A DNA stretch of 64,000 nt from Bradyrhizobium genosp. L. GTDB lineage: Bacteria > Pseudomonadota > Alphaproteobacteria > Rhizobiales > Xanthobacteraceae. How positions within the stretch are numbered: the first letter of the stretch is position 1; each line of letters opens with the position of its first letter. The notes beneath the pieces are model-generated. The model ran no database searches. It had not been told where the DNA came from and worked only from the letters and a program-made list of their open reading frames with translations. Shown here piece after piece: positions 1-43,761 of the stretch. Where the stretch lies: assembly GCF_015624485.1 (NCBI RefSeq), contig NZ_CP061378.1:5208001-5272000 (forward strand), written 5' to 3'. The position numbers and the translations under genes were made by a program.

Positions 1-557
1 ACCGCGCGGTCGAGCAGCACGTCGGCGAGATTGGCTGGCGTCGGCCGCGCGCCGGCATCGCGGAGATAGCCGAAAGCGATCACGCCGAGCGCCTGCTCGA
101 CTTCGGCGAGCGTCGCCATGCCGGTCGACAGGATGATCGGCAGCCTGAAGCGCGCCAGATGCAGCAACAACGGTGCGTTGGTGAGATCGCCGGAACCGAC
201 CTTCAGCGTCGAGACGCCGATGCGCCGGACCAGATGGGTCGCACTGTCGGCGTCGAACGGCGTCGACATGTAGATGATGTCAGCGGCGGCACACGCGGCC
301 GCGATCCGCGCCTCGTCATCTTCGGACAGCTCGAGCGCGCGCAGCATCTCGAGCTGGGACTGCTCGGTCCCCGTCGTGACCTGCTGATAGCTTGCCTTCG
401 CCGCCTCGCTGGTGGCGAGCTTGTCGGCGCGGAACGATTGAAACTTGACGACGTCGGCGCCGGCCCGCGCCGCCGCATCCACCAGCGCCAGCGCCCGCGC
501 GGGATCGCCGTTGTGGTTAACGCCAGCCTCGGCAATGATCAGGGTTCGGCGATGCAT
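1..557 (-). CDS. neuB: Nonulosonic acid synthase, NeuB/LegI-like, N-terminal part
   Basis: Condenses phosphoenolpyruvate with an N-acylated mannosamine-type sugar to give a nine-carbon nonulosonic acid (sialic, legionaminic or related) in the cytoplasm. About 185 residues are in the window, from ATG at 557 to the left edge; the family is usually near 350 residues, so the end of the TIM barrel and the C-terminal SAF (antifreeze-like) domain lie outside. Visible family signatures are IIAEAGVNHNGD at the N-terminus, DVVKFQ, YMSTPFD and the LKVGSGDL/STGMATL barrel strands. It is divergent from the CMP-transferase and epimerase genes of the same pathway. Sequence alone does not say whether the substrate is of the Neu, Leg or Pse type; the LegB/LegC-like genes in the window favour Leg. 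Confidence 0.9.
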   Translation of the reverse strand, partial: MHRRTLIIAEAGVNHNGDPARALALVDAAARAGADVVKFQSFRADKLATSEAAKASYQQVTTGTEQSQLEMLRALELSEDDEARIAAACAAADIIYMSTPFDADSATHLVRRIGVSTLKVGSGDLTNAPLLLHLARFRLPIILSTGMATLAEVEQALGVIAFGYLRDAGARPTPANLADVLLDRA

Positions 558-738
558 CGGGTTTGTCGCGGGACGCGGTGGGCAATCGAAATCACCCGCC
601 AATCAAGCGGTTGTCTTAGTCGAGTACACTGGTAAAAGCAACGCGAGCGGGCGGCTTGCACCGGTGTTCCCAAGCCTCCTGTGCGGCATGGAATAACGCC
701 GCTTTCAGATGGCGCAGATCGCGGGATTGTCGAGGCAA

Positions 739-1479
739 ATGACTGATACGGCGCAGATCCTGTTTTTGTTGGTGGGCCGCGGCGGATCGAAGGGCGTGCC
801 GCGCAAGAATCTGCGCGAGATCGGCGGCCTCAGCCTGATCGGCTACAAGGTCCGATCGGCGCTCAAGTCGCGCTACTGCTCCCGCCTGATCGTCTCCAGC
901 GACAGCGCGGAGATCCGCGACGAGGCCAAGCGCCATGGCGCCGAAATGCTGTTCGAGCGGCCGGCCGAGCTTGCCACCGACACCGCCTCCTCCAACGACG
1001 TGGTGCTGCACGCGATGGACTGGATCGAGCAGCATGAAGGCCGCCACTACGACGCGATCATGCTGCTGGAACCGTCGTCGCCATTCGCGCGGCCGGAGCA
1101 TTTCGACGAGGCGGTCGAGCTGTTTGTGGCGCGCCAGGCCAGCCTCGTGGTCGGCATGCGCGAGACCGAGGTGGCCTCGGTGTTCGTCGGCACGCTCGGC
1201 GAGGACGGCTCGATCGGCGGCATCGTCGAGAAGATGCTGAAGACGCCGGCGCAACGCCGCCAGGACCAGGCGCCGGAGGTGACGATGAACGGTGCGCTCT
1301 ATCTGGTCGGCTGGGACGCCATGCGCAGGCATCGCAAGATCTACGCCGACCCGGCCGCAAGCTACGGGATCATGATGGACCGCCTGCACTCGATCGAGAT
1401 CGAAAGCGCGGCCGACCTCGCCTATGCGTCCTACGTCATCGAGCATGGCATGCTCGACGCCTCGCCCTGGCGGACGTGA
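739..1479 (+). CDS. neuA: CMP-nonulosonic acid cytidylyltransferase, NeuA/LegF-like
   Basis: Activates the nonulosonic acid with CTP to give the CMP-sugar used by glycosyltransferases. The nucleotide-binding signature GRGGSKGVPRKNL lies at residues 12-24, followed by the typical SRLIVSSDS and LLEPSSPFARP segments. At about 246 residues it is the length of a single-domain cytidylyltransferase with no appended phosphatase domain. I chose ATG 739 because it puts the signature close to the N-terminus as in the family; an in-frame ATG at 709 would add ten residues and has no better ribosome site. The stop overlaps the possible GTG start (1476) of the epimerase gene, so the two are probably translationally coupled. 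Confidence 0.88.
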   Translation: MTDTAQILFLLVGRGGSKGVPRKNLREIGGLSLIGYKVRSALKSRYCSRLIVSSDSAEIRDEAKRHGAEMLFERPAELATDTASSNDVVLHAMDWIEQHEGRHYDAIMLLEPSSPFARPEHFDEAVELFVARQASLVVGMRETEVASVFVGTLGEDGSIGGIVEKMLKTPAQRRQDQAPEVTMNGALYLVGWDAMRRHRKIYADPAASYGIMMDRLHSIEIESAADLAYASYVIEHGMLDASPWRT

Positions 1480-1481
1480 CC

Positions 1482-2678
1482 ATGACCGCCGCGCCCCGCC
1501 ACATCGCCGTCGTCACGGGATCGCGGGCCGATTACGGATTGCTGCGGGGCATTTTGGCGCGGCTGAAGGCCGCCGACGACGTGACGCTCAGCGTGATCGC
1601 CTGCGGCATGCATCTGGTGCAGCGATTCGGCGAGACCTGGCGCGCCATCGAGGCCGACGGCTTTCCGCTCGCAGCGAAGATCGACCTCGCGCTCGCCGAC
1701 GATCGCGCCGAGACGGTGGCGCGTGGCACCGGGATCGGCATGTCAGGCTTTGCCGACACGCTCGCCAGGCTGAAGCCCGATCTCCTCGTCGTGCTCGGCG
1801 ACCGCTATGAGATTTTGGCCGCTGCAACCGCGGCGCTGCTGCTCAACATCCCAATCGCGCATATCCATGGCGGCGAAGTCACCTCAGGTGCGTTCGATGA
1901 CGCGATCCGCCATGCCATCACCAAGATGGCCTGCCTGCATTTCGTCGCGGCTGAGCCGTACCGGCGCCGGGTCATCCAGATGGGCGAGAATCCCGATTTC
2001 GTCTTCAACGTCGGCGCGCCCGGCCTCGATCTCGCAAGCACCGCACCGGCGCTGAGCCACGGCGAATTGTTCGCGCAACTCGGCATCACCGGCCCGGAGC
2101 GCTTCCTGCTGGTCACACTGCATCCGACCACCGCGCAGCCGGAAGCCGATGCAGCCAATATCGCCGCGCTGCTCGACGCGTTGGCGCAGGTCAAGGACCG
2201 CAGCTTCATCTTCACCGGCGTCAACGCCGATCCCGGATATCGCGCGATCGACGATGCGGTCCGCGGCTTCGTCGCGGCGCGGCCGGACCGGGCGCATCTG
2301 TTCGCCTCGCTCGGCAGCGAGCGCTATTGGGCGGCGCTGCGGCTCACCGATGCCGTGGTCGGGAACTCGTCGAGCGGCATCCTGGAGGCGCCGGCTGCGG
2401 ACGTACCCTCGATCAATATCGGCGATCGCCAGCACGGCCGGCTGCGTGCCGCCTCGATCATCGATTGCCCCGCCGATTCCAGCGCCGTGCTCACCGCCCT
2501 CGAGGACATCCTGGCCGGGCGCTTCAAGGTCGATCCGTCGCTGGTTCCGCCCTATGGCCGCGGCGGCGCGTCGGAGCGAATTGCTGGAACCCTTCGAACG
2601 ATCGACCTCCGCGGGGCTTTCCCCAAGCATTTCCATGACTTATCCGCCGCTTCGGACGGCGCGAATCCCGTTTCATAA
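1482..2678 (+). CDS. neuC: Hydrolysing UDP-sugar 2-epimerase, NeuC/LegG-like
   Basis: Removes UDP and inverts C2 of a UDP-N-acetyl sugar, giving the free manno-configured sugar that NeuB condenses. Signatures of the UDP-GlcNAc 2-epimerase fold are VTGSRADYGLL near the N-terminus, LGDRYE at about residue 105, AHIHGGE, AIRHAITKM and the C-terminal VGNSSSGILEAP nucleotide-binding loop. The length of about 398 residues fits the family. Either ATG 1482 or the GTG at 1476, which overlaps the preceding stop as GTGA, could be the start. With a LegB/LegC-like pair also present, the natural substrate may be a UDP-2,4-diacetamido-trideoxyhexose (LegG role) rather than UDP-GlcNAc; this is an inference. 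Confidence 0.87.
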   Translation: MTAAPRHIAVVTGSRADYGLLRGILARLKAADDVTLSVIACGMHLVQRFGETWRAIEADGFPLAAKIDLALADDRAETVARGTGIGMSGFADTLARLKPDLLVVLGDRYEILAAATAALLLNIPIAHIHGGEVTSGAFDDAIRHAITKMACLHFVAAEPYRRRVIQMGENPDFVFNVGAPGLDLASTAPALSHGELFAQLGITGPERFLLVTLHPTTAQPEADAANIAALLDALAQVKDRSFIFTGVNADPGYRAIDDAVRGFVAARPDRAHLFASLGSERYWAALRLTDAVVGNSSSGILEAPAADVPSINIGDRQHGRLRAASIIDCPADSSAVLTALEDILAGRFKVDPSLVPPYGRGGASERIAGTLRTIDLRGAFPKHFHDLSAASDGANPVS

Positions 2679-8648: not shown

Positions 8649-10190
8649 TCACGCCTTGGTGCGCTCGCCCGCAGATCTGGTCCAGATGTCGACGGCGAGG
8701 CCTGCCGCGAGCATCGAGACCAGCACCAGAGCAGAGTTGGCAACGCCCAGCGGACCCTGAACAGGGCTGAGCAAGATGCTGGCGAGAGTGAATACCAGCA
8801 ACAGCCGCGGCGTCAGCAAGTGGGACAGTTTGGTACCCGCCGCACTCCATCCCGCCATGCATCCCCAGACCAGGATGTAGATGATCGCGCCGACCAGCCC
8901 GAAATCGATGAAGGCGGCGAGCCAGGCCGACGGGAAGAAACCGAACAGCCCGGCCGATCGCTGTTCTGCCTCCACCTTGTTCACCTGCTGGTCGCTCCGG
9001 AAGAACACCCGCAGGATCGGCGACAGCACACCAACTTCATAGACGCCCCATTGCGGGGACAATCCGTCACGGGCCTGCCAGCCGACATCGATCGAGCGCA
9101 CGCCATGTGTCAGGTAGAAGTAAGTGCTCAGCCCAATCATCATCGCGCGCGGCGACAGGTAGCCGGCGTTGACCGCGGCGGTGACGTAGCCGCGCGGCTT
9201 CACGTGCCAGGCCTCCAGCATGATCGCCAGCACTGCGTCGGCGGAAAGCGGCTGCGGCGCCGGCGCCGCGCTGGGCCCCGTCGTTGCGGCAGCCATCTGC
9301 TTGCTGAGATCGGTACCGGAGATCACTTCATTGGATTTCCGAGTCTCGGCGGCGGCCGGTGCAGGCTGTTGTTGTTGTTGCTGTTGCTGTTGTTGTTGTC
9401 GTTGCTGCAGTTGCTGCTTCTGCTCCAGCTCGTGAATCAGCGGCGTCAACTGGGCGCAGAAATTCTGCCGGCTTGACCAGATCGAGCTCGAATAGACCGC
9501 AAACAGCCCGACCGCGAGCACCGCCTTGAGCAGCAAATAATGCCCGGCCGGCAGCGGCCGCCGCCCCTCGCTGACGCGGACCAGGATCGCGGCAATCACC
9601 AGCAGAATCACGAGCAGGATCGGCATCCGCCCGGAATAAAGCAGCGCATAGCCTACCGGCGACACGATGGATAGTTGGGCCAGCGCCGCCGCCCATCCCC
9701 TGACAACCTCGCCTTTCAGCAGGAACAGGATCACGGAGACGAAGCCGAACGAGAACATGACATAGCCGAGATAGAGGATCGGCGTGCGCTTGATCGCGAT
9801 GGCATTGACCAGTCCCGGCGCGCAGCGCAAGAGCTCGGCGTAGACGCCATTGCTCACGCCGCTCAGGACCATCCGATCGAGCGCGACGAAGCCTATTCCC
9901 GCGATCCCGATCAGCGACGTGATCGTGACGGCGCGGTTGAGCGTCCTTGCCGAGGGTTCCGCAATCGGCTTCCCGCGCCCGAACCAGCGGTCAAACATGG
10001 AACCGCCGCCGCGATAGCCGAGGAGAAACAGCACAATCCCGATACCGACCACCGCCAGCACGGCCAATGACGGCTGCCCCGGGTAATCGATCGGCCCGAC
10101 AGCGACCAAAGCGAGCGCTATTCCCCAGACCACGACAATGAGAGTCGCCGGCGACGAAAGACCGCCGGCCAGCCCAATAAATCGTTGCAT
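8649..10190 (-). CDS. Putative O-antigen polymerase (Wzy-like) with polyglutamine loop
   Basis: A 513-residue inner-membrane protein with about ten to twelve hydrophobic segments, consistent with a Wzy polymerase that joins glycan repeat units in the periplasm. The open frame continues upstream to 10937, but that stretch is low-complexity antisense to the neighbouring flippase frame, so ATG 10190 (MQRFIGLAGG) is taken as the start. A large hydrophilic region near residues 237-320 begins with a glutamine-rich tract (11 consecutive Gln after an Arg) and a PAPAAAE segment. The preceding gene on the same strand is a flippase, which supports a Wzx/Wzy pair. Wzy proteins share little sequence, so the name rests on topology and context. 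Confidence 0.62.
   Translation of the reverse strand: MQRFIGLAGGLSSPATLIVVVWGIALALVAVGPIDYPGQPSLAVLAVVGIGIVLFLLGYRGGGSMFDRWFGRGKPIAEPSARTLNRAVTITSLIGIAGIGFVALDRMVLSGVSNGVYAELLRCAPGLVNAIAIKRTPILYLGYVMFSFGFVSVILFLLKGEVVRGWAAALAQLSIVSPVGYALLYSGRMPILLVILLVIAAILVRVSEGRRPLPAGHYLLLKAVLAVGLFAVYSSSIWSSRQNFCAQLTPLIHELEQKQQLQQRQQQQQQQQQQQPAPAAAETRKSNEVISGTDLSKQMAAATTGPSAAPAPQPLSADAVLAIMLEAWHVKPRGYVTAAVNAGYLSPRAMMIGLSTYFYLTHGVRSIDVGWQARDGLSPQWGVYEVGVLSPILRVFFRSDQQVNKVEAEQRSAGLFGFFPSAWLAAFIDFGLVGAIIYILVWGCMAGWSAAGTKLSHLLTPRLLLVFTLASILLSPVQGPLGVANSALVLVSMLAAGLAVDIWTRSAGERTKA
9366..9422 (-). repeat. CAG/CAA microsatellite encoding polyglutamine in the Wzy-like protein
   Basis: Nineteen codons that are nearly all CAG or CAA on the minus strand, giving an uninterrupted run of 11 Gln plus Gln-rich flanks. 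It falls in the large hydrophilic loop of the polymerase-like protein. Confidence 0.9.
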
Positions 10191-10273
10191 ATTGCCCCGC
10201 CAAAAAATTCCGGCGCCAACCCAAGGCTGTGTAGCAAGCTCGCTCCGGTACCGCAATGCAGTGCCGCGCGGCC

Positions 10274-11602
10274 TCAGGGATAGAGCATGTCGGGGTCGGT
10301 CGGCAGGCCGACGGTCTCCGCCGCGCTGCGTTCCGCGCCATTCTTGCGCACCCTGCGAACAGCGAAGCCGGTCAGCGAGGCGAACAGCACCGTGCTCGCA
10401 GCGGCGCCGGCCAGCGCCGCGCCATAGATGCCAAGCCGCGGAACCAGCGCGAGGTTGAGCAATGTCGCGACCACCGCGGAACCAAGGTTGCAGAGCAGCA
10501 GGTATTTGTCGGATCGCGCGGCGTAGAGCGCATAAGAAGGGACATCGGACATCATGCGCAGGAAGATTCCCGGCAGCATCGCGTAGAAGACCCCGACGCC
10601 CGACGCATAGGCGGTCAATCCGAGCATCGTGAGCATCGGTTTCATGACGAGGCCGCAGCCGACCATCGCGGCCGTCGCAAGCCCCAGCATCGACCAGAAG
10701 AACGAGCGCAGCGCCCCGCGATAGGCCTCGGCGCCGGCCGCGTGTCCGGCAATCACTTTCGGCAAGAACTGATGCGAGACCGATGCGCCGAGCGACAGCA
10801 GGCCGATCAAAATCGTCGAATAGAATGTGTAGATGCCGAGCGCATCGCGCCCGACAAACCCATCGATTGCGAAACGGTCGACATAGGAAATCACCAGCGC
10901 CCCGGCCGAGGTCACCATGAACGGTCGCGCCGTCCACAGCCCTTGTCGGATCGCCTGCCAGTTAGGGCGGTATCCGGTGAGCCCGCGCCAAGGCAAATCG
11001 GACAGCGAAATCGCCGAAAAGCCGATCGCCGCCACACCGCCGAGCGCCCACCAGGCCAGCACCGTCCCCAGCGTGCGCGTCGAGGGCGTCGTCAGCATCA
11101 GGACTGCGATCGCATAGACCCAGATGCCGCCGCGCAGGAATATGCCGATATAGGCCCGCACCGGGCGCGAGGTGATAATGAGGATCCGCGTCGCCTCCAG
11201 CGATAGATGCTCGGTCACCAACAGCAGAAGGAACCAAGGTGCGAGCTGTGCCGGAAACAGGCCGGCGAGGATCGCGCCGATGACGACGAGGCCGATCCCC
11301 AGCAATGCGAGCGCACAAAGCGCGATCTGGTCGACGATGATCCGGGCGCGCCGGTCGGGCGTCGCCGGTACCATCTCGCGCAACGTGTACGAGTAGAATT
11401 CGAGCCCGACCGCAAGCAGCGCAAATGCCAGCACCGCGGTCAACAGGCCGTATTCGCCCATCTCTGCCGGCGACAGCATCCGCGCCAGCAGCAGCGATAG
11501 CAGGAAGCGGCTTGCGAGCGTCAGCGCGCGCAGGATCAGCGCCGACATGGTGCCGGCGACCGCGGGCCGCCTCACGAGCTCGACCAGGCGGGACAGCTTC
11601 AT
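10274..11602 (-). CDS. Polysaccharide flippase, Wzx/MATE-like
   Basis: A 442-residue membrane protein with 12-14 hydrophobic segments typical of the polysaccharide-transporter branch of the MOP superfamily. These proteins flip undecaprenyl-linked repeat units across the inner membrane. Early segments include LILRALTLASRFLLSLLLAR and MGEYGLLTAVLAFALLAVG; the C-terminus VRRVRKNGAERSAAE is basic and cytosolic. ATG 11602 (MKLSRLVELV) is chosen over the in-frame start at 11656, whose extra residues are Gly/Arg-rich. It precedes the polymerase-like gene by 83 bases and is divergent from the acyl carrier protein gene. Confidence 0.8.
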   Translation of the reverse strand: MKLSRLVELVRRPAVAGTMSALILRALTLASRFLLSLLLARMLSPAEMGEYGLLTAVLAFALLAVGLEFYSYTLREMVPATPDRRARIIVDQIALCALALLGIGLVVIGAILAGLFPAQLAPWFLLLLVTEHLSLEATRILIITSRPVRAYIGIFLRGGIWVYAIAVLMLTTPSTRTLGTVLAWWALGGVAAIGFSAISLSDLPWRGLTGYRPNWQAIRQGLWTARPFMVTSAGALVISYVDRFAIDGFVGRDALGIYTFYSTILIGLLSLGASVSHQFLPKVIAGHAAGAEAYRGALRSFFWSMLGLATAAMVGCGLVMKPMLTMLGLTAYASGVGVFYAMLPGIFLRMMSDVPSYALYAARSDKYLLLCNLGSAVVATLLNLALVPRLGIYGAALAGAAASTVLFASLTGFAVRRVRKNGAERSAAETVGLPTDPDMLYP

Positions 11603-11819
11603 GCTGCCGGCTCGCGCAAGCGCGGGGCTGCGACGGCCGCCACCACCGCCGGCCATCTTGCAAAGTCAATCGTTTGCGCTTGCATCGCTTCATTCCCCGA
11701 GCGCCGGCTCGGGCGGGTCATGGAGGAATTGCGCATTTACCGTGTTTCGGCGCGCGTGACAAATGCCGCGCGAAATCCTAAAATGCTCGCCTATCCGGAC
11801 ACTTAGGGAACTACGGCAA

Positions 11820-12119
11820 ATGCCCCCAAATACGGGACAAACTCTCGCTCTGGTCTATGGCTGCCTCGACGAGATCAACGACCTGAGACCCCCGGAAGAA
11901 GCCATCGAAAAACGTCCCGACGTGCTGCTGGTTGGCGAAGGCGGCAGCCTCGACTCGCTGGCGCTGACCATGTTGATTCTCAACCTCGAACGCCAGGCCA
12001 GCAAGATGTCCGGCAAGGAGATCAGCCTGCTCGACGGGCGCGAGCTCGAGGACAATCTGGCGCGCTTTGCCACGCCGGCAGCCCTCGCCGAACTGGTCGA
12101 TGAGGCCGTTGGCGCATGA
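11820..12119 (+). CDS. Acyl carrier protein
   Basis: A 99-residue carrier protein. The phosphopantetheine attachment motif is DSL in GGSLDSLALTMLI, with the modified Ser near residue 46, followed by a helix of NLERQ type. Translation is set at ATG 11820, which has AGGGA upstream; an earlier in-frame ATG at 11763 adds 19 residues without ACP character. The stop overlaps the FkbH gene start as ATGA, implying coupled translation. Next to an FkbH-type enzyme, it probably carries a C3 glyceryl or other hydroxyacyl group. Confidence 0.82.
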   Translation: MPPNTGQTLALVYGCLDEINDLRPPEEAIEKRPDVLLVGEGGSLDSLALTMLILNLERQASKMSGKEISLLDGRELEDNLARFATPAALAELVDEAVGA

Positions 12120-13816
12120 GCACGCCCTGCAACGTCCTGGTGGTGTCCGATTTCAACGCCGAGCTGGTCTCGCGATATATCTCGGCCGACCGCACGATGC
12201 CGGCATGCGCCGCGACCAGCGCGCCCTACGGCCAGGTCTTCCAGGTGCTCTCCAGTGACGGCGCCGCGGCGCCCGGCAGCGTTGCGCTGATCTGGACCCG
12301 GCCCGAAGGCGTCATCCCGGAATACGCCAAACTGCTGGCGGGACATCAAAGCGAGCCCGCGCGCCTCGACGCCGAAGTCGACGCATTCGCCGCGATGATC
12401 AGGACGTTCGCGAAGCGCTGCAAATATGTCTTCGTCGCAAGCTGGGCGGCGACCTTCCATGATCGCGGGCTGGGCTTGCTGAGCTGGTCCAGGCAAGGTG
12501 CCGCCGGCCTGCTCGCGCGGATGAACCTGCGGCTGGCCGAGCAGCTCGGCGGGGCCGCCGATGTCTTCATGCTCGACAGCCAGCGCTGGATCGACGCCTC
12601 GGACAATCCGCGCGATCGCAAGTCGTGGTATCTCGCCAAGGCGCCGTTCACGGAAAAAGTCTGCAAGGCCGCAGCCCAAGACGTGAAGTCGGCGCTACGC
12701 ACGGCGTCGGGCCAGAACCGCAAGCTCGTCGTCGTCGACCTCGACGACACGATGTGGGGCGGCATCGTCGGCGATGACGGCTGGGAGAATCTGCGGCTCG
12801 GCGGCCACGACCATGTCGGCGAAGCCTATGCCGAATTCCAGAGCGTGCTGAAGACGCTGGTCAACCGCGGCATCGCGGTTGCCGTCGTCAGCAAGAACGA
12901 TGAGGCGGTGGCGCTCGAGGCGATCGCCCAACATCCCGAGATGATCATCCGCAAGGACGACCTCGCCGCCTGGCGCATCAACTGGAAGGACAAGGCACAG
13001 AACATCGCCGAGCTGGTCGAAGAGCTCAATCTCGGCCTGCAATCGGTCGTGTTCATCGACGACAACCCAATCGAGCGCGGCCGGGTGCGTGAGGCACTGC
13101 CGGAAGTCCTGGTGCCGGAATGGCCGGGCGATCCGTCGAAATATGCCGACGCGTTGCGCCAGCTCGACTGCTTCGATCGTGCCTCGATCACGACGGAGGA
13201 TCGCGAGCGCACCCGCATGTATGTCCAGGAGCGGGAGCGGCGCGACAGCCTCACCGTCGCCTCTTCGCCGGAAGATTGGCAGGCCTCGCTGGGCGTTCGC
13301 GTTCACGCCGCCCCGGTCTCCGCGTCGAACGTGAAACGGATCGTGCAGCTGATGAACAAGACCAATCAGCTCAATCTGCGCACGCGGCGGACGACAGAGA
13401 AGGAGCTGTTTCAGTGGCTCGAAGAGGGCCATAACCGCAACCTCGCGGCGGTGACCGTCTCCGATCGCTTCGGCGACCTCGGGCTGACCGGCATCGTGAG
13501 CTGGGAACAGGTCGGCGCTGCCATCGAGATCGTAGACTATGTGCTGAGCTGCCGTGCCATGGGCCGGCGGGTCGAGGACCTGATGGTCCATCTCGCCGCG
13601 CAAGCCGCCTCGCGCGCGGGCTGCGATACCGTGAACGCACGGTTGATCCCGACCGCGAAGAACCGCCCCTGCCTGGAGTTCTGGCAGAACTCCGGCTTCA
13701 CCGACGCCGGAGACAATGTCTTCGTCTGGAACACCGCGACCGACTATCCGAAGCCGGCCTTCATCACGCTGGAGAACGATGTCGCGCCGGCCGCGCCCAT
13801 GGCTGCCGCGATCTGA
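12116..13816 (+). CDS. FkbH-like HAD-IIIC phosphatase/acyl-ACP loading enzyme
   Basis: A 566-residue multidomain protein. The HAD motif DLDDTMWGG is at residues 208-216, later HAD elements include VVSKND and VFIDDNPIERG, and the C-terminal third (about 420-540) resembles the GNAT-like domain that follows HAD in FkbH proteins. In polyketide pathways FkbH proteins load a glyceryl unit from 1,3-bisphosphoglycerate onto an ACP; this is known for the family and inferred here from the adjacent ACP gene. The N-terminal 200 residues hold a less conserved domain. Its start overlaps the ACP stop and the acyltransferase gene begins four bases after it, so the products probably work together. Confidence 0.87.
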   Translation: MSTPCNVLVVSDFNAELVSRYISADRTMPACAATSAPYGQVFQVLSSDGAAAPGSVALIWTRPEGVIPEYAKLLAGHQSEPARLDAEVDAFAAMIRTFAKRCKYVFVASWAATFHDRGLGLLSWSRQGAAGLLARMNLRLAEQLGGAADVFMLDSQRWIDASDNPRDRKSWYLAKAPFTEKVCKAAAQDVKSALRTASGQNRKLVVVDLDDTMWGGIVGDDGWENLRLGGHDHVGEAYAEFQSVLKTLVNRGIAVAVVSKNDEAVALEAIAQHPEMIIRKDDLAAWRINWKDKAQNIAELVEELNLGLQSVVFIDDNPIERGRVREALPEVLVPEWPGDPSKYADALRQLDCFDRASITTEDRERTRMYVQERERRDSLTVASSPEDWQASLGVRVHAAPVSASNVKRIVQLMNKTNQLNLRTRRTTEKELFQWLEEGHNRNLAAVTVSDRFGDLGLTGIVSWEQVGAAIEIVDYVLSCRAMGRRVEDLMVHLAAQAASRAGCDTVNARLIPTAKNRPCLEFWQNSGFTDAGDNVFVWNTATDYPKPAFITLENDVAPAAPMAAAI

Positions 13817-13819
13817 CCG

Positions 13820-14860
13820 ATGGGCATCACCCTCGAGCTGTGCGGGCTTTCGGATCGACAGGATCTGATGGACTTCATCCGCGACTACTGGAGCGCCAAC
13901 CACGTGCTGGCGCGCAGCGAAGCGCTGATGGACTGGCAACACCGCGACGAGGCCAACCAGCGCTATAATTTCATCGCCGCGCGCGACGATGAAAAGGGCA
14001 TGGTCGGCATTCTCGGCTTCATCCTGGCGAGCCGGTACGACCCCACCCTTGCCGGCGAGGCCGATACGCTGTGGCTGACGACCTGGAAGGCGCGGCCGGA
14101 TTTCGCCCACGGTCTCGGGCTTTTGCTATTGCGCAAGCTCGACAGCCTGATGGCGCCGAAATGGATCGGCACCGTCGGGCTCAACCTCGCGACCAAAGGC
14201 ATCTATCAGGCGCTCGGCTATCACGTCGACATGCTGTCGCGGCATTACATGCTCAACAGCGCGATCGAGAACTACAAGTTGGCAACCGTGCCTGCGGACT
14301 CGCGGAGCAGCCCGAATTTCAGCTCGGGTGCGACGCTCACTGTGCTTGATCGGGACAATTTCTGGACCGCCACCGAAGGTCTCGGCCTGGACGCGTCGCT
14401 TCAGGTCCCACGCAAGACCCGTGCGTTCCTCCATGGACGCTACCTGTCTCATCCCTTCTATCACTATCAGGCAATGCTGCTGGTCGATGGGCTGCACGCC
14501 GCGATCTGCATGCTGCGGAGCTGCACAGCCGAAGGTGCGACCGCGCTGCGCATGGTGGATTTCCTCGGCGATGGCGCGGCCTTGCGACGCGCCGGCGCCG
14601 CTTTCCAGGAGTTGCTGCGCGCGAGTGACGCCGAATACATCGACTTCTTCTGCAGCGGACTGCAGGCCGAACTTGCAGCGGCCGGCTTTCTCACGGTGCC
14701 GCCGGGCAAGGATGCCGGGATCGTGCTGCCGGGCTATTTCGAGCCGTTCGAACGCTCCAATGTCGAACTCGCCTTCTCGCTGCGCGGTCCGGGCGACGAT
14801 CGCATCGTCTGCAAGGGCGACGCCGATCAAGACCGCCCCAATTTGCTGATCAGTCCATGA
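13820..14860 (+). CDS. GNAT-like acyltransferase, double domain
   Basis: A 346-residue protein. Residues 1-150 look like a GNAT fold: GMVGILGFILASRYDPTL as beta strands, RPDFAHGLGLLLLRKLD in the position of the acyl-CoA loop and helix, and IYQALGYHVD as the terminal GNAT strand. The second half repeats a similar architecture but lacks clear motifs. It lies between the FkbH gene and the MaoC-SDR gene, with an ATGA overlap at its end. It is the best candidate for transferring the ACP- or CoA-bound acyl group to an amino sugar; acceptor and donor are inferred. Confidence 0.6.
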   Translation: MGITLELCGLSDRQDLMDFIRDYWSANHVLARSEALMDWQHRDEANQRYNFIAARDDEKGMVGILGFILASRYDPTLAGEADTLWLTTWKARPDFAHGLGLLLLRKLDSLMAPKWIGTVGLNLATKGIYQALGYHVDMLSRHYMLNSAIENYKLATVPADSRSSPNFSSGATLTVLDRDNFWTATEGLGLDASLQVPRKTRAFLHGRYLSHPFYHYQAMLLVDGLHAAICMLRSCTAEGATALRMVDFLGDGAALRRAGAAFQELLRASDAEYIDFFCSGLQAELAAAGFLTVPPGKDAGIVLPGYFEPFERSNVELAFSLRGPGDDRIVCKGDADQDRPNLLISP

Positions 14861-16254
14861 CGGCCGCTCGGCGACGGTTCGAGATCGACGATCAGCGCTG
14901 GTTTGCGGCCGCCTCCGGCGACCACAATCCGATCCATGTCGACGGCGAATGGGCGGTACGGCATTTTCCGGGCGCGCTGGTGGTGCATGGCATGCACGTC
15001 CTGCTGTGGGCGCTGGATCAGTTTGCCCAGCGGCGGCCGGGCGCGTCGTTTGCCGCGATCGACGCGACCTTCGTCAAGCCGATCGTCGTCGGCGACGAGG
15101 TCGTCGCAACCGGATCCGATGACGGCAAGCTGATCCGCGTCACGGTGGGGCGCGAAATCGCCCTGGTCGCGCGCATCGAGCCCGGCGAGACCGTCGTCGA
15201 CGGTCAGCTGCGCTTTGAGCCGGGCACCCCGCCGAGCGTACCCTCTCCCCGCACGCACGCGGACATCCCGGGCTTCGCCGGGGTCATCGCGCTTCCTGAG
15301 ACGGCGTCCTCCCTCCCCGCCCGGTTCGGCGCACTGGCCACCGCACTTGGTGTCGACCGCGTGATTGGACTTGCTGCCGTCTCGACCGTGGTCGGAATGG
15401 AGATCCCGGGACTTCGCAGCATGCTGTCCAAGATCGCGCTCAAATGCGTGCCGTCGACAGCCGGCGTGCTCGGTTTCGCAGTTCACAAGTTTCACGACGC
15501 CATGAGCCTCGTCGAACTCGATGTTCTCGGCCTGGGCATCCGAGGAACCGTATCGGCCTTCGCGGGACGCGAGCCGCCCGCGCCCGCCACGGACGAAGCC
15601 TTGCGCCGGATGGTGGCGCCGGCCGAATTCAGCGGGTCGCGGCCGCTCGTGATCGGCGCGGCCAGCGGGCTTGGCGCAGTCACAGCGAGGCTGCTTGCAG
15701 CGGGCGGCGCCGATCCGGTGCTCACCTGGCACGCATCCGATCTCGATGAGACGCTGCAGAGCGTGCGCAACCTCGGCGCAACCGGCTGCGCCCTCAAGCT
15801 CGATGCGACATCGCCGTCGCAGGGCCTCACCGATCTCGCCGCCACCGGCTGGGATGGCGGGCAAGTCTACTATTTCGCCTCGCCTCGCATCTTCCGCCGC
15901 CGTATCGAGCTCTACCAGGCCGGAGACTTCCGCGATTTCGCCGCGGTGTTCGTTGACGGTTTCTACGCCGTCGTCCAGCAACTGCTCGCACAGACCAGCG
16001 GCAGGTTGACCGTGTACTACCCGTCGACCGTCGCGATCGACGAAAAGGCATCGGACTTGCTGGAATACGCTGCCGCGAAAGCGATTGGCGAGCAGCTTTG
16101 CGCGCGGCTGGAAAAAAGCAATTCTCGCCTGAAGATCATCGTGGCGCGGCTGCCGCGGATCACGACGCGGCAGACGGAAACCTTCCTGAAGGTGAAGGCC
16201 GAGCTGCCGGAAGCCGTGATGCTGCCGTTGATCCGCACCGTGCAATCGGCGTGA
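14857..16254 (+). CDS. MaoC-like hydratase fused to a short-chain dehydrogenase
   Basis: A 465-residue two-domain enzyme. The N-terminal hot-dog domain carries the (R)-hydratase signature SGDHNPIHVD at residues 20-29, followed by GALVVHGMH. A middle section (about 100-250) may be a second degenerate hot-dog. The C-terminal domain is an SDR: cofactor loop VIGAASGLGAVTARL near residues 264-278 and catalytic YAAAK near residues 404-408. The pair could interconvert 3-oxoacyl, 3-hydroxyacyl and enoyl thioesters. It overlaps the acyltransferase gene by ATGA and is followed 11 bases later by the deacetylase. A single reading frame spans both domains, so the fusion is real in this sequence. Confidence 0.78.
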   Translation: MTAARRRFEIDDQRWFAAASGDHNPIHVDGEWAVRHFPGALVVHGMHVLLWALDQFAQRRPGASFAAIDATFVKPIVVGDEVVATGSDDGKLIRVTVGREIALVARIEPGETVVDGQLRFEPGTPPSVPSPRTHADIPGFAGVIALPETASSLPARFGALATALGVDRVIGLAAVSTVVGMEIPGLRSMLSKIALKCVPSTAGVLGFAVHKFHDAMSLVELDVLGLGIRGTVSAFAGREPPAPATDEALRRMVAPAEFSGSRPLVIGAASGLGAVTARLLAAGGADPVLTWHASDLDETLQSVRNLGATGCALKLDATSPSQGLTDLAATGWDGGQVYYFASPRIFRRRIELYQAGDFRDFAAVFVDGFYAVVQQLLAQTSGRLTVYYPSTVAIDEKASDLLEYAAAKAIGEQLCARLEKSNSRLKIIVARLPRITTRQTETFLKVKAELPEAVMLPLIRTVQSA

Positions 16255-16265
16255 GCGAGGGAAAC

Positions 16266-17255
16266 ATGGACAGGCCGACCGGCAAGCTCACGATCGTCAT
16301 GTACCACTATGTGCGGCCGCTCAAGCGCACGCGCTTTCCACGCATCAAGGGCCTCGATCTCGACCTGTTCGAGCAGCAGCTCGGCTATCTCGCGCGACAT
16401 TATTCGCTTGTGACGATGGAGCAGCTGATCGATGCCATCGACGGCCGTGGGGAGCTTCCGCCCCGGCCCGCGCTGCTGACCTTCGACGACGGCTATCTCG
16501 ATCATTACACCTACGTGCTGCCCAAGCTCGTCGAGCGTAAGATCCAGGGCTCGTTCTTTCCGCCGTCATGCTCGGCGATCGACCGCAAAGTGCTCGACGT
16601 CAACAAGATCCATTTCATTCTCGCCTCCAACGTCGATCCCGACGATCTCGTCGCCACGATCGAGACGGCGTGCCGCGAACGCGCCGAGGAATTCGGTCTG
16701 CAGCCGATTGCTCACTACCGCGAGAAGTACATGGTCGGTAATTTCCTCGATCCGGCCAACGTCGACTATGTCAAGCTGATGCTGCAGCATGCGCTGCCTT
16801 CAGCGTTGCGCAGCGAACTGATCGAGCAGCTCTTCAGCCGTCACGTCGCAGCCGACGAGGCGACCTTCGCGGGCGAACTGTACGCGACGGTCGAGCAGTT
16901 GCGCCTGATGCGAGGCTGCGGCATGCACATCGGTTCGCACGGCAGCCTGCATCAGTGGCTGGGCCATCTGCCCAGAGAAGAGCAGGAAGCCGACATCGAC
17001 GGATCGCTGGCGCTGCTCGACGCGGTCGGGGTCGCTCCCGCCTATCGCAGCATGTGCTATCCCTATGGCAGCTACAACGACGACACCGTCAGCGCGATCG
17101 CGTCGCGCGGTTTCAAGCTCGCGCTCACGACCGAGGTCGCGCTGTCGGAAACGAATGCCGCGGCCCGCTTCCGACTTCCGCGTCTCGATACCAATCACCT
17201 GCCGAAGGACGCATCCGCGCCGGTCAATGAATGGACATTGGCGGCCGAAACCTGA
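16266..17255 (+). CDS. Polysaccharide deacetylase, NodB-like
   Basis: A 329-residue metal-dependent deacetylase of carbohydrate esterase family 4 type. The N-terminus TIVMYHYVRP, the catalytic TFDDGYLDH (Asp 74 and 75) and the metal-binding SHGSLHQWL are in order, with YPYGSYND toward the C-terminus. There is no signal peptide, so it should act in the cytosol on a nucleotide-linked or lipid-linked sugar. ATG 16266 follows a good GAGGG ribosome site; a GTG at 16251 overlapping the previous stop is an alternative. It closes the ACP-FkbH-GNAT-MaoC/SDR run, which suggests it frees an amine for re-acylation. Confidence 0.85.
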   Translation: MDRPTGKLTIVMYHYVRPLKRTRFPRIKGLDLDLFEQQLGYLARHYSLVTMEQLIDAIDGRGELPPRPALLTFDDGYLDHYTYVLPKLVERKIQGSFFPPSCSAIDRKVLDVNKIHFILASNVDPDDLVATIETACRERAEEFGLQPIAHYREKYMVGNFLDPANVDYVKLMLQHALPSALRSELIEQLFSRHVAADEATFAGELYATVEQLRLMRGCGMHIGSHGSLHQWLGHLPREEQEADIDGSLALLDAVGVAPAYRSMCYPYGSYNDDTVSAIASRGFKLALTTEVALSETNAAARFRLPRLDTNHLPKDASAPVNEWTLAAET

Positions 17256-17290: not shown

Positions 17291-18511
17291 TCAGGTCCGG
17301 TTCGCGCCGGCGGCGAGGAACGGGCTGCTCGGCAGGTTGATGCAGCGCGTAAACATGTCCTCGGCGACGCCAAGCGGCGCGCGCGGGCAGTCGCGGTACA
17401 TCGGCAGCATGTGCATCGGCGTCCACAGCGGCCGGGCGCGGATGCCGTGGCCGTGCAGCGCCGACAACAGCCGGTCGCGCTCAGCCGCATGATCGCCGTC
17501 GAGCACCAGCGTGTTGAGCCAGTAGTTGCTCTGCGCGCCGTCGGGCTCGCGAAAGATCCGCGCCCAGGGAAACGCGCTGAACGCCGCGAGATAGCGCTCG
17601 GCGAGTTCGCGCTTGGCCGCGACCATCGCCGGTAGCCGCTCCATCTGCCCGCAGCCGAGCGCGGCATTGATGTTGGGCAGGCGATAATTGTAGGCGACCT
17701 CGTCATGGTCGAACGCCCAGGCGTGCGACCTCTTCGCGGTCGAGGTGAAATGCCGGGCGTGACGGGCGTGCTGGTCGTCGTCGGTCAGGATCATGCCGCC
17801 ACCGCCGGTGGTGACGATCTTGTTGCCGTTGAAGCTCAGCACCGCCGAATGGCCGAACGTGCCACAGCCCTGCCCGTTCCAGGTCGAGCCGAGCGATTCG
17901 GTTGCGTCCTCGACGACCACGAGGCCGTATTTCGCGGCAATCGCATTGAGCGCGGCCATGTCGGCCGGATGGCCGAAGATGTGGACAGGAACCAACGCGC
18001 GCAGCCGGCGCCCGGTTTCCCTGTTCACCCACCCGCCATCGCGTTGCGCGGCGATCGCCGCGAGATGTTTCTCCAGCGCAACGGGGTCGATGCCGAGCGT
18101 ATCCCAGGTCGAATCGACGAAATGCGGGATAGCGCCGGCGTGGCTGACGGCATTCGCGGTCGCGACGAAAGTGATTGCGGGCAGCAGCACCTCGTCGTTG
18201 GGCTCGACGCCCTCGAGCAGGAGCGCGGCGTGCAGGGCAGCCGTGCCGTTGACGATTGCGACAGCATGGCGGGCGCCGGTCGCCTGCGCGACCATCTGCT
18301 CGAAGCGGTTCACATACTGGCCAGCCGACGACACCCAGTTGGTATCGATGCAATCGAGCACGAATTCACGCTCGCGCGCGCCGAGCCGCGGCTCGTGCAA
18401 TTCCACAGGACGCGGGTTGGCGCCGAGGACGGCGTCGACCGCGTCGAGGGCGGGTTGCAGGTCGAGTGGCGCCGATCCGGCCTTGCCGGCTTGTGCGGAC
18501 GAAATGCTCAT
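17291..18511 (-). CDS. legC: Nucleotide-sugar aminotransferase, LegC-like (DegT/DnrJ/EryC1)
   Basis: A 406-residue PLP enzyme that would aminate a 4-keto sugar nucleotide. Distinctive LegC-type features are DTNWVSSAGQYVNRFE near residue 50 and AIVNGTAALHAAL, then LPAITFVATANAV and VVVEDATESLGS. The PLP-binding Lys is in SFNGNKIVTTGGGG. The open frame extends upstream to 19297 but that part is antisense-like noise across legB; ATG 18511, or GTG 18520 overlapping the legB stop, is the start. Directly downstream of the dehydratase that would supply its substrate. Confidence 0.87.
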   Translation of the reverse strand: MSISSAQAGKAGSAPLDLQPALDAVDAVLGANPRPVELHEPRLGAREREFVLDCIDTNWVSSAGQYVNRFEQMVAQATGARHAVAIVNGTAALHAALLLEGVEPNDEVLLPAITFVATANAVSHAGAIPHFVDSTWDTLGIDPVALEKHLAAIAAQRDGGWVNRETGRRLRALVPVHIFGHPADMAALNAIAAKYGLVVVEDATESLGSTWNGQGCGTFGHSAVLSFNGNKIVTTGGGGMILTDDDQHARHARHFTSTAKRSHAWAFDHDEVAYNYRLPNINAALGCGQMERLPAMVAAKRELAERYLAAFSAFPWARIFREPDGAQSNYWLNTLVLDGDHAAERDRLLSALHGHGIRARPLWTPMHMLPMYRDCPRAPLGVAEDMFTRCINLPSSPFLAAGANRT

Positions 18512-18516
18512 CGAGG

Positions 18517-19515
18517 TCACAGCGTGTAGGCGTTGGCGCGATAGCGGGACAGGTTCTCCTGCTTGGTGAACCAGGCGATGGTCTCCTCGAGGCCCTTGCG
18601 CAAGCCGTCGACGCCGGCAAAACGCGGCGACCAGCCGAGCAGCCTCGCGGCCTTGGCATTGCTGGCCCACAGCCGCTCCACCTCGCTGCGGTCGGGGCGG
18701 ACGCGGACGTCGTCCTGCTCGATCTCGATCTCGACGCCCATCAGCTCCGCGATCAGGCGCGCGGTGTCGCCGATCGAGATCTCGAAGCCGCTGCCTATAT
18801 TGACGACCTCGCCGATGCCGGCCCTGGTCCCGAGCGCCGCCAGGAAGCCGCCGACGGTGTCCGAGACATAGTTGAAGTCGCGGGTCGGGTGGATGCTGCC
18901 GAGCTTGATGCGGCGGCTGCCGGCCGCGATCTGGGTGATGATGGTCGGAATCACCGCGCGGGTCGATTGCCGCGGGCCGTAGGTATTGAAGGGACGCACC
19001 ACCGTCACCGGCGTACCGAACGACTTCTCGAACGACAGCGCGAGCTGGTCGGCCCCGATCTTGGTTGCCGAATAGGGCGACTGCCCCTGCAGCGGGTGCT
19101 CCTCGGTGATCGGAACGAACTGCGCGGTGCCGTAGACCTCGCTGGTCGAGGTGTGCACGACATGGCCGACATCGAGGTCGCGCGCCGCCTGCAGCACGTT
19201 CAGCGTGCCGCGGATATTGGTGTCGAGATAGGTGTCGGGCGAATGATATGAATAGGGGATGGCGATCAGCGCGGCGAGATGCAGCACCGCATCGCACCCC
19301 TTCATCGCGGTCCGTAGCCCGTTTGGGTCACAAATGTTGCCCGCGAACACGTCGATCTTGCCGAGGATTTCGGCCGGCAGCGAATCGAGCCAGCCATAGG
19401 ATCCCATGCCGTTGTAATGCACGAAGGCACGCACGCCGACCTGTCGGCGGACCAGTTCTTCCGCAAGGTGAGAGCCGATGAATCCACCCGCGCCGGTCAG
19501 CAATACCTTTTGCAA
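18517..19515 (-). CDS. legB: Nucleotide-sugar 4,6-dehydratase, LegB-like
   Basis: A 332-residue SDR that oxidises C4 and removes water at C5-C6 of a UDP- or GDP-linked N-acetylhexosamine, the first step toward legionaminic acid. It has TGAGGFIGSHLAEEL at the N-terminus, HLAALIAIPYSYHSP, SEVYGTA, the catalytic YSATK and RPFNTYGPRQS. These segments, especially the IAIPYSYHSP region, are typical of LegB. No ATG is close to the N-terminus. The TTG at 19515 gives the canonical short lead-in and has CAGGAG upstream; a GTG at 19560 would add 15 residues including a duplicated ETRSLQ. Confidence 0.86.
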   Translation of the reverse strand: MQKVLLTGAGGFIGSHLAEELVRRQVGVRAFVHYNGMGSYGWLDSLPAEILGKIDVFAGNICDPNGLRTAMKGCDAVLHLAALIAIPYSYHSPDTYLDTNIRGTLNVLQAARDLDVGHVVHTSTSEVYGTAQFVPITEEHPLQGQSPYSATKIGADQLALSFEKSFGTPVTVVRPFNTYGPRQSTRAVIPTIITQIAAGSRRIKLGSIHPTRDFNYVSDTVGGFLAALGTRAGIGEVVNIGSGFEISIGDTARLIAELMGVEIEIEQDDVRVRPDRSEVERLWASNAKAARLLGWSPRFAGVDGLRKGLEETIAWFTKQENLSRYRANAYTL

Positions 19516-19548
19516 GCTCCGAGTCTCCTGCAAGCTCCGTGTCTCCGT
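19513..19548 (-). repeat. 18-bp tandem duplication at the legB translation start
   Basis: Two adjacent 18-base units (19513-19530 and 19531-19548) match at 16 of 18 positions. Each contains a TTG codon in the legB frame with a GGAG-like stretch nearby, so the copy carries a second possible initiation site. Confidence 0.75.
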
Positions 19549-20014
19549 GAGCGCCAGCACCCGCCGCCAGCACGCCGCTTCTAGCTACTCCGGTGCCGGG
19601 AGGCCAGACGGAAAGTGCCGAAAGCCGGCGTCGCCGTCCAAAGGGCTCTTGCAATCGCCCGTAGGATCTTTTTCTTAGATCCTAATAAGTATCTGAATTT
19701 GCTATGCTATCTAAGACGATCTAAAGATCGGACGACACCGCATCCGGTCGCCGCGGACGTAGCGAAGGGGTTGGCGGTGTGTGCGATCGGCCTCCTCTGG
19801 ATTGCACGACGACAAGGCACACGACCCGGGGCGAAGGAGTCTGGCAACGCCTGTTCGGGATTCGCAGAGATGAGAACACCGGGAACAGCAGGGAACATGC
19901 CGTGGCGCGTAACGCACAGGCTACAGACGCGCACAATCGCAACAAACGTTGTATGGGCGTTTTGAATGGGGTATCGGACGACGTGTTGGCGTCAAGCCTT
20001 GCTGGAGGAACTAG
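19549..20014. other. Divergent intergenic region with AT-rich core and two inverted repeats
   Basis: Lies between legB (minus) and the polymerase-like gene at 20015 (plus). An AT-rich patch around 19660-19730 stands out from the GC-rich surroundings and holds AGGATCT/AGATCCT (19663-19669 and 19677-19683, 7-base loop) and CGATCT-AA-AGATCG (19717-19730). These could be promoter or operator elements for one or both genes. An open frame at 19779-20018 would end in a GTGA overlap with the next gene, but its codon use is poor and I do not call it a gene. Confidence 0.5.
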
Positions 20015-36127: not shown

Positions 36128-36691
36128 CTACTTCCCGCCCTGCCACTGGCCGGAGACACCGAGCACGACGCGGATCGGGCCGGTACCGGCTTCGCTGGCC
36201 GTGGTCAGCTGCGGCACCTGGACGTCGAGCTGATCAATGAACAGGAAGGGCATGCCGACCTCGAGATCATAGAGCAGTTTCTGCAGCGCCGGCTGCTCCA
36301 TCTCGCAGCTGACGACGAGGCCGACGAAGCCGTCGCGCGCCTGGGTGCCGAGCACGTCGACCTGCGAAGACTGCACGGTGCCGCCGACATTGCCGATCGC
36401 GCTCGCGACCCGCTGCAGCAGCGCGGCGCCTGCGACCGTCACGGTCGGCCCTTCCAGGAACGGCGTGCCCGGATGCTCCGCCGACAGTGCGGCCGGATTG
36501 CGCGGCTTGCGCCCGCGCAACTGCTCGAGCAGGTCGGAGGTCCGCGCCAGCGTGCGCTGATGGTCGAGCATGCCGACGACTGAGACCACGCTCATGGTCG
36601 CGAGCCCGCCGAGCACCGCAAGATACAGCACCACCGCGATCAGCGGCGACTGCGCCAGCGTGCGCGTCACGATGTTGCTCGCCGCACTCAT
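36128..36691 (-). CDS. gspM: Type II secretion protein GspM
   Basis: A 187-residue inner-membrane protein: one N-terminal transmembrane helix (LIAVVLYLAVLGGLATMSVVS), a coiled-coil-like stretch HQRTLARTSDLLEQL, and a C-terminal ferredoxin-like periplasmic domain with LLQRVASAIGNVGGTVQSSQ. It binds GspL in the assembly platform. ATG 36691 overlaps the GspL stop (ATGA). It is the last gene of the gsp run. Confidence 0.78.
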   Translation of the reverse strand: MSAASNIVTRTLAQSPLIAVVLYLAVLGGLATMSVVSVVGMLDHQRTLARTSDLLEQLRGRKPRNPAALSAEHPGTPFLEGPTVTVAGAALLQRVASAIGNVGGTVQSSQVDVLGTQARDGFVGLVVSCEMEQPALQKLLYDLEVGMPFLFIDQLDVQVPQLTTASEAGTGPIRVVLGVSGQWQGGK

Positions 36692-40778: not shown

Positions 40779-40789
40779 GGGCAACATCC

Positions 40790-42001: not shown

Positions 42002-42005
42002 CACA

Positions 42006-43691: not shown

Positions 43692-43761
43692 CGAAGTCCC
43701 ACCGCTCACGTTGTTACCTGAATACAACAGCTCGTGCGTGCAGCAATCCGGCCCTTGGCGC

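Follow-up and report, generated by a model that had tools for sequence, protein, structure and literature searches.

A stretch of 64,000 nucleotides from Bradyrhizobium genosp. L (contig NZ_CP061378.1, positions 5,208,001 to 5,272,000; hereafter the window, from a genome of 7.4 Mb in one contig) carries five closely packed genes for an acyl carrier protein (ACP), an FkbH-type protein, a GNAT-like protein, a MaoC-SDR fusion, and a CE4-type deacetylase. We read this operon, with moderate confidence, as an acyl-exchange module by which an amino sugar, probably a nonulosonate of the legionaminic type, would be N-deacetylated and then N-lactoylated. The reading is built on the observed gene set, its conservation, the homologies, the catalytic residues, and the predicted folds, as well as on analogy with described pathways. 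In the proposed sequence of events, FkbH would transfer a glyceryl unit from 1,3-bisphosphoglycerate to the small ACP, after which glyceryl-ACP would be dehydrated by the MaoC half of the fusion to pyruvyl-ACP (formed as its enol), whose alpha-ketone the SDR half would reduce, yielding lactyl-ACP. A cytosolic sugar precursor would lose its N-acetyl group to the CE4 deacetylase, leaving an amine to which the tandem GNAT protein would pass the lactyl group held by the ACP. A legionaminic-type nonulosonate, modified at N5 or N7 and supplied by the flanking LegB, LegC, NeuC, NeuB, and NeuA homologs, would be the most likely acceptor.

The operon and its conservation

The five genes occupy positions 11820 to 17255 of the window:

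11820..12119, + strand: ACP, 99 aa; predicted carrier of the C3 unit
12116..13816, + strand: FkbH, 566 aa, with an N-terminal extension, a HAD-IIIC domain, and a C-terminal part; predicted to load glyceryl onto the ACP
13820..14860, + strand: tandem-GNAT protein, 346 aa; predicted N-acyltransferase that takes the acyl group from the ACP to the amine of a sugar
14857..16254, + strand: MaoC-SDR fusion, 465 aa; predicted glyceryl-ACP dehydratase and alpha-ketoacyl-ACP reductase, giving lactyl-ACP
16266..17255, + strand: CE4-type deacetylase, 329 aa, its motifs 1 and 2 separated by a long insertion; predicted to remove N-acetyl from a sugar in the cytosol

A first-pass annotation, made from the letters of the window alone, had described these genes as overlapping or lying within a few bases of each other, and this is indeed the case. 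The ACP and FkbH genes, like the GNAT and MaoC-SDR genes, overlap by 4 nt (ATGA), and the remaining two gaps measure 3 and 11 nt, a spacing that gives the picture of one tight operon. The ACP start at 11820 agrees with the starts of homologous ACPs (an alternative ATG lies upstream at 11763). For the deacetylase the start at 16266 is preferred, as the one in the list of open reading frames (ORFs), 16098, falls within the MaoC-SDR gene.

A scan for the MaoC-SDR family in one genome per species, which relied on two peptide patterns and misses relatives that lack them, returned 66 loci. Of these, 36 (L008-L043, with L033 cut by a contig end) match beyond the MaoC part. A second search, with the GNAT family, matched 10 of 398 genomes of a phylum sample (own genome counted), two of which hold L087 and L090. 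Counting the window, all five families are found together in eight loci from Pseudomonadota, Gemmatimonadota, and Acidobacteriota, in two gene orders:

Window order kept: L008 (Bradyrhizobium tropiciagri), L009 (a Gemmatimonadaceae metagenome-assembled genome, MAG), L010 (Pseudolabrys), L011 (Magnetospirillum), and L038 (an Acidobacteria MAG, in which the GNAT gene is spread over several frames, perhaps by assembly error)
Order deacetylase-ACP-FkbH-GNAT-MaoC-SDR: L087 and L090 (in L090 about 0.2 kb precedes MaoC-SDR)

The expectation of the first-pass annotation that the five genes would be conserved together in other genomes thus proved right, and such conserved co-occurrence rules out a chance neighborhood. 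The occurrence of two orders in distant groups speaks for genes that work as a unit and have stayed together despite transfer and rearrangement. In a tree, L087 and L090 have MaoC-SDRs that branch outside the group of the window, a split that is not strongly supported. An Actinomycetota MAG (L035) has FkbH-GNAT-MaoC-SDR with a weak ACP match (E 9e-4) and a deacetylase about 5 kb away on the opposite strand.

Within this set, two pairings can be discerned. FkbH is present in the fetched stretch of 30 of the 36 MaoC-SDR loci, and in five of the six loci without it (L014, L025, L028, L033, and L037) the match lies less than 3 kb from a contig end. The deacetylase profile (E <=1e-12), on the other hand, matches all seven MaoC-SDR loci that have the GNAT gene (L008, L009, L010, L011, L028, L035, and L038) and none of the 29 that lack it. 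Looking from the GNAT side, the deacetylase accompanies it in 16/21 distinct loci including the window, none of them fetched with the deacetylase as query; these counts favor close kin, as the profile was built from module members, the stretches vary in size, and relatives are not independent. (The 21 omit the duplicates L003, L004, L078-L083, and L077, which equals the window, and the weak or broken L005/L076, L085, and L086.) Four loci (L053, L074, L075, and L092) even combine GNAT and deacetylase with no FkbH detected, which strengthens the earlier proposal that a sugar is N-deacetylated and re-acylated. Since FkbH pairs with MaoC-SDR and GNAT with the deacetylase, the module looks like two sub-units, one for acyl supply and one for acyl exchange on an amine.

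A supportive but indirect indication that GNAT and MaoC-SDR are linked comes from contig sizes. Among the matches listed (120 of 929 for GNAT and 120 of 158 for MaoC-SDR), 20 of the 79 GNAT matches on contigs of at least 3 kb share a contig size with a MaoC-SDR match (two of the 20 are identical in size), versus a mean of 0.4 in a shifted control. Separately, L005/L076 (G051, from the genus of the window) shows a partial GNAT match with internal stop codons, which may mark a copy of the module in decay.

The acyl supply: a probable route from glyceryl to lactyl

The ACP carries the motif GxLDSL, in which Ser46 is predicted to bear the phosphopantetheine; G39, G42, L44, D45, S46, and L47 are invariant in an alignment of 10/10 module-locus sequences including that of the window. 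In the Pfam scan the window ACP had no match of its own, and PF00550 was matched by three of nine scanned relatives, weakly (best E 0.023). FkbH scores 280.3 bits on TIGR01686 (cut-off 146.65), and its residues D208, D210, D315, D316, S478, C479, and R480, comprising the HAD DxDxT motif and the SCR cysteine, are invariant in 12/12 module FkbHs. We take C479 to be the residue that holds the glyceryl unit. FkbH proteins are described as transferring glycerate from 1,3-bisphosphoglycerate to an ACP (PMC7489565; PMC4979870), and the window protein is predicted from its sequence to do the same. Published accounts of FkbH in oocydin, whose DH-MT-FkbH-ACP module is regarded as inactive, and in haliangicin (PMC4552970, PMC4768178) gave no further lead, nor did papers on bryostatin and on glyceryl or lactyl units.

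The fusion protein is the key to the nature of the acyl group. Its MaoC part is clearly recognized (PF01575, 46.2 bits, cut-off 27), while its SDR part scores slightly below the cut-off (PF00106, 25.4 bits vs 26.6). The catalytic residues of both, D22, N24, and H27 as well as S390, Y404, and K408, are invariant in 18/18 sequences. In the structure model (pLDDT 90.7), the MaoC part consists of two hotdog-like halves with the catalytic motif in the first; the second (about residues 135-237) is delimited by predicted secondary structure only, SDR chains filling the fold-comparison list. The closest relatives in the PDB include an R-specific enoyl-CoA hydratase and 3-oxoacyl-ACP reductases.

A more telling relative was found by a plasmid protein search, in which the window MaoC-SDR matched 12 records (FkbH, which often occurs without MaoC-SDR on plasmids, matched 107), among them Streptomyces griseofuscus pSGRIFU1. 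This plasmid has a single match place covering 93% of the query at 27% identity (tblastn), and the module-family profile finds the same fusion with E 1e-39 over positions 11-464 of 472. It keeps D22, N24, H27, H44, S390, Y404, and K408. The genes for a stand-alone ACP and an FkbH start 1.7 kb beyond the fusion (locus L093); this FkbH is identical to that of the window at the seven invariant positions given above but does not keep D12, D154, and N417. Streptomyces sp. NBC_01224 shows the same arrangement. The plasmid bears four clusters, of which lankacidin is one (PMC8443760). We infer that the stretch with the fusion is the lankacidin cluster, since its adjoining genes (polyketide synthases, a discrete dehydratase, a malonyltransferase, and an FAD oxidoreductase) correspond to the functions named for LkcA-LkcE. 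In the biosynthesis of lankacidin and FR901464, bifunctional dehydratase-ketoreductase (DH-KR) proteins are reported to turn glyceryl-S-ACP into lactyl-S-ACP (review PMC4765723), and the lankacidin starter is described as pyruvoyl- or lactoyl-ACP derived from 1,3-bisphosphoglycerate, with lactoyl preferred (PMC6162330).

Because the MaoC-SDR of the module resembles this lankacidin-type fusion, and the conversion of glyceryl-ACP to lactyl-ACP has been reported for that pathway, the acyl group is quite probably lactyl and not glyceryl. The first-pass annotation was thus right to invoke an FkbH-type C3 supply, but its glyceryl unit probably stops one step short. That the group nevertheless remains glyceryl, with the MaoC-SDR acting elsewhere or merely editing stereochemistry, we consider rather unlikely. 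Such an outcome has precedents, as FkbH and an ACP alone yield glyceryl-ACP in tetronate pathways (PMC7489565) and pseudaminic acid of Campylobacter jejuni bears a glyceroyl derivative (PMC3068675). Yet the fusion retains both active sites in 18/18 sequences aligned, accompanies FkbH in most loci (30/36), and has its likeness in the lankacidin-type cluster. The pair of congeneric genomes G161 and G153 is instructive here: G161 has the whole operon, whereas G153 has deacetylase-ACP-FkbH-GNAT and, genome-wide (one contig, 99% completeness), no full-length MaoC-SDR (best match E 2e-5). While G153 can be cited in favor of glyceryl, the pair is as expected of a MaoC-SDR that serves as an optional tailoring step. 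It predicts glyceryl without and lactyl with the fusion, making it the neatest natural test.

MaoC/SDR pairs normally work on 3-hydroxyacyl thioesters, and 3-hydroxybutyryl groups occur on nonulosonates. One could accordingly imagine that MaoC and SDR make another beta-hydroxyacyl group, such as 3-hydroxybutyryl, with FkbH feeding a separate second donor. The PDB relatives named above would suit this alternative, as would the ketosynthase III within the FkbH locus of L013. We nonetheless find it improbable, given the lankacidin parallel and a module that, in the window, has one ACP and neither a ketosynthase nor an acyl-CoA ligase in the Pfam scan. A small natural product (tetronate- or polyketide-like) as end product, in place of a glycan, is more improbable still. 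FkbH, ACP, and DH-KR proteins are admittedly best known from polyketide clusters, but no ketosynthase or NRPS family turned up among the window proteins scanned, a subset of all, and the genes around the module encode glycosyltransferases, Leg enzymes, and a flippase-like protein.

The FkbH and MaoC-SDR pair also occurs next to other partners, namely an MBOAT O-acyltransferase (L016), a WcbI-type protein (L096), a methyltransferase (L012), and a ketosynthase III (L013). Tentatively, and with somewhat less confidence than in the module itself, we suggest a transferable sugar N-lactoylation system in at least three phyla, in which a glycolytic intermediate would be converted to lactyl-ACP by polyketide starter-unit enzymes and the lactyl group passed to amino sugars by a dedicated tandem-GNAT/CE4 pair. 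The supply cassette would also be plugged into MBOAT (L016) and WcbI (L096) contexts and would thereby become a general route to lactoylated surface glycans.

Some relatives of these cassettes deserve separate mention. In Methylobacterium (L013, L015, L017, L018, L021, L022, and L024) FkbH is divergent from MaoC-SDR, and the maps of L013, L015, and L017 add a ketosynthase III (Pfam-checked in L013), small possible-ACP ORFs, an SDR, and a PglD-like acyltransferase, possibly pointing to a longer ACP-borne acyl group. In L014, L016, L039, L041, L042, and L043, MaoC-SDR stands with an MBOAT-family gene (PF03062, checked in L016 only), which perhaps suggests O-lactoylation of a polysaccharide. A relative on a Streptomyces atratus plasmid (L094) has Tyr in place of the catalytic H27, no FkbH in its stretch, and adjoining deoxysugar and NRPS genes, which would fit a loss of the dehydratase step there.

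The proposed acyl exchange and its likely acceptor

The window GNAT-like protein has no match of its own in the Pfam scan, and PF00583 is matched by only 5/25 family members. Its structure model (pLDDT 92) shows a tandem-GNAT fold, which in fold comparison ranks with Eis, N-myristoyltransferases, and glucosamine GNATs (including glucosamine N-acetyltransferase). A sequence search of solved structures gave no significant match (best E 0.66 alone and 0.12 with an alignment), and comparison with a viral fold library yielded nothing informative. A CelD/FemAB-type assignment was rejected, as no Pfam match pointed that way and the fold groups with other GNATs; the mere fact that CelD/FemAB proteins were not listed does not amount to exclusion.

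The deacetylase matches PF01522 (65.6 bits, cut-off 23.1), has TFDDG and HxxxH motifs, and keeps D74, D75, H225, and H229 in 16/16 sequences. Reading by eye revealed no obvious signal peptide. It had initially been labeled NodB-type, a label in need of correction: it scores 70.8 bits on the PgaB model vs 16.0 on that of NodB (TIGR04243, cut-off 240), both below cut-off, and its PDB relatives include PgaB/BpsB. From sequence and model, the GNAT protein is predicted to transfer the ACP-borne acyl group to the sugar amine freed by this deacetylase.

As for the acceptor, the genes on both sides of the module are informative:

17291..18532, - strand: LegC-family aminotransferase, convergent with the module (TIGR04181, 517.6 bits, cut-off 420)
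18517..19560, - strand: LegB 4,6-dehydratase (TIGR04180, 489.7 bits, cut-off 475)
1..602, - strand, crossing the left window edge (genome 5207475-5208602): NeuB-type nonulosonate synthase (TIGR03569, 459.3 bits, cut-off 399.65, scored on the whole gene in locus L006; PF03102)
709..1479, + strand: CMP-nonulosonate cytidylyltransferase of the PseF/NeuA type (PF02348, 57.4 bits; TIGR03584, 112.5 bits, below the cut-off of 205.7)
1476..2678, + strand: NeuC/LegG-type NDP-GlcNAc 2-epimerase (TIGR03568, 432.4 bits, cut-off 235.9)
Beyond the left window edge: NeuD-type acetyltransferase, nucleotidyltransferase, SDR, WbuX, HisH, and HisF/WbuZ-like protein

LegB, LegC, NeuC, NeuB, NeuD, WbuX, and HisH score above their curated cut-offs, and the PseF-like enzyme and WbuZ below. 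Judged by these homologies, the module lies in a nonulosonate locus of legionaminic type that also has amidation genes, and a legionaminic-type nonulosonate is probably the acceptor. Leg or Neu genes are likewise found in the stretches of L008, L009, L011, and L053, and in L053 the GNAT and deacetylase genes even sit between NeuB and NeuC/NeuA. Furthermore, L035 has a NeuA-like and L064 a LegB-like match. The idea that the module could substitute for a missing N-acetyltransferase LegH is weakened by the NeuD/PglD-type acetyltransferase beside NeuB.

The same chemistry directed at a different amino sugar, with its amine on a lipid-linked sugar or in a polymer, is possible but less likely. The PgaB-type polysaccharide deacetylases, nearest to the window enzyme, would fit this alternative, as would L087, L088, and L090, where no Leg or Neu gene stands beside the operon, and L010, L028, and L038, where NeuA, NeuB, and NeuC are unmatched. 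The placement within L053 and the company of Leg or Neu genes in the other loci just listed speak for a nonulosonate instead. The co-occurrence with nonulosonate genes foreseen by the first-pass annotation consequently holds for only part of the loci. The same is true of its glycan-locus setting, which is evident in the window but not in L087 and L090, where no glycan gene was recognized within 19 kb (by eye and with ten window queries).

Critically speaking, a number of points weigh against a lactoyl-exchange module acting on nonulosonates. Some concern the gene set. Five GNAT loci (L067, L084, L089, L091, and L097) have no deacetylase detected by the profile, L067 and L084 being short records. 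G150 has ACP-FkbH-GNAT with MaoC-SDR about 20 kb away on the same contig and no deacetylase found in the stretch, and G169 carries only GNAT in its stretch, with MaoC-SDR elsewhere and no deacetylase found near GNAT. The module is moreover rare, with a GNAT match in 3/148 relatives besides the window genome (one broken) and in 9/397 genomes of a phylum sample (own genome excluded; two weak). Others concern the acceptor. The stretches of L087, L088, L090, and L091 are without NeuA, NeuB, and NeuC, the operons of G161, G153, and G157 had no Leg or Neu gene detected next to them, the L010 contig has no Leg/Neu match, and L028 and L038 have weak LegB-like matches and no NeuA/B/C. In favor of a nonulosonate, NeuB (PF03102) is present in 10/10 GNAT genomes asked versus 78/192 others of the phylum sample (Fisher p 2e-4), but this comparison spans 7 genera of related genomes, leaves out three of 13 with weak or broken GNAT (G051, G245, and G372), and uses a family that covers other synthases besides NeuB. 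The flank also encodes an amidation set (WbuX/HisH/HisF-like) and an acetyltransferase of the NeuD/PglD type, so the lactoyl group has rivals among other N-substituents for these amines. Finally, the lankacidin parallel is a distant one at only 27% identity (tblastn), it presupposes which of the four pSGRIFU1 clusters the fusion belongs to, and it equates that fusion with the protein assayed for lankacidin by He et al. 2014. From the individual reactions and their order to the lactyl product and the acceptor, the biochemistry is a prediction.

Elsewhere in the window, a minus-strand ORF of the glycan locus (8649-10937, no Pfam match) has a run of about eleven glutamines (EQKQQLQQRQQQQQQQQQQQPAPAAAE) at about 9360-9440; a CAGCAGCAGCAG run, looked for alongside it, was not found. 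Positions 56772-57563 and 59773-60449 fall in two long minus-strand ORFs (902 and 938 aa) whose 147-bp repeats resemble each other, as if a repeat protein had been duplicated, and 36688-43727 holds a type II secretion/pseudopilin-like cluster (PilN, T2SSE).

Relation to known systems

If correct, the proposal links the acyl-ACP chemistry of antibiotic starter units with bacterial surface sugars. It predicts N-lactoyl nonulosonates derived from 1,3-bisphosphoglycerate and would assign roles to a GNAT family mostly missed by Pfam and to the MaoC-SDR fusion. The enzymes could also serve to produce N-lactoyl amino sugars.

The lankacidin/FR901464 starter system is alike in having FkbH, a stand-alone ACP, and a full-length MaoC-SDR homolog with the same catalytic residues (as compared with pSGRIFU1). 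There the lactyl group starts a polyketide, whereas here the cassette stands with a tandem GNAT protein and a deacetylase in a glycan locus. The legionaminic pathway (LegB, LegC, LegG, LegI, and LegF) is represented by the LegB, LegC, NeuC, and NeuB homologs adjoining the module; to our knowledge, the acyl-exchange step is an addition to it and no part of the pathway as known.

NodB/NodA/NodF act by N-deacetylation followed by N-acylation from an ACP, a logic that the module shares. Its parts differ, as the window deacetylase falls far under the NodB cut-off and the acyltransferase is a tandem GNAT protein. In enterobacterial flagellin glycosylation islands, the glycan genes are accompanied by ACPs, FabG, and in one case FabZ, but the partners there are LuxE/LuxC/CaiC, and FkbH and MaoC are not named in the accessible text (PMC4875605).

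A precedent in logic comes from C. jejuni. We take DUF2172/DUF4910 to be the domain of its protein Cj1295; in the Pfam scan, it was in none of the module's five proteins. In L009 it does occur, as a fusion with an Antibiotic_NAT domain encoded 2.1 kb upstream of the module (L009:2644-4800); this single protein may pair an acyltransferase with a deacylase. C. jejuni 11168 carries 5-(2,3-di-O-methylglyceroyl)amino-pseudaminic acid, for which Cj1295 is proposed to cleave the N5-acetyl group; a table names Cj1295 as aminopeptidase and Cj1296/7 as N-acetyltransferase (PMC3068675). Cj1302 is an FkbH-domain gene of the flagellar-glycan locus (PMC7099621), which the accessible parts of these two papers do not tie to the glyceroyl group. 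Compared by description and not by sequence, both systems would put a C3 acid amide on a nonulosonate after removal of N-acetyl, with an FkbH-domain gene in the locus; there an aminopeptidase-like deacetylase and a methylated glyceroyl are involved, here a CE4 enzyme and a predicted lactoyl.

The first-pass annotation knew of no named system with this set. A literature search, with subscription papers mostly outside its reach, likewise gave no paper naming both FkbH and MaoC and, among the papers listed and judged by title, opening of the abstract, and cited passages, no description of the set, although the logic is preceded by the glyceroyl-pseudaminic acid of C. jejuni (PMC3068675, as far as its accessible text goes). 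The module is a new combination of two known kinds of system, one supplying an ACP-borne C3 acid and the other performing N-deacetylation and re-acylation.

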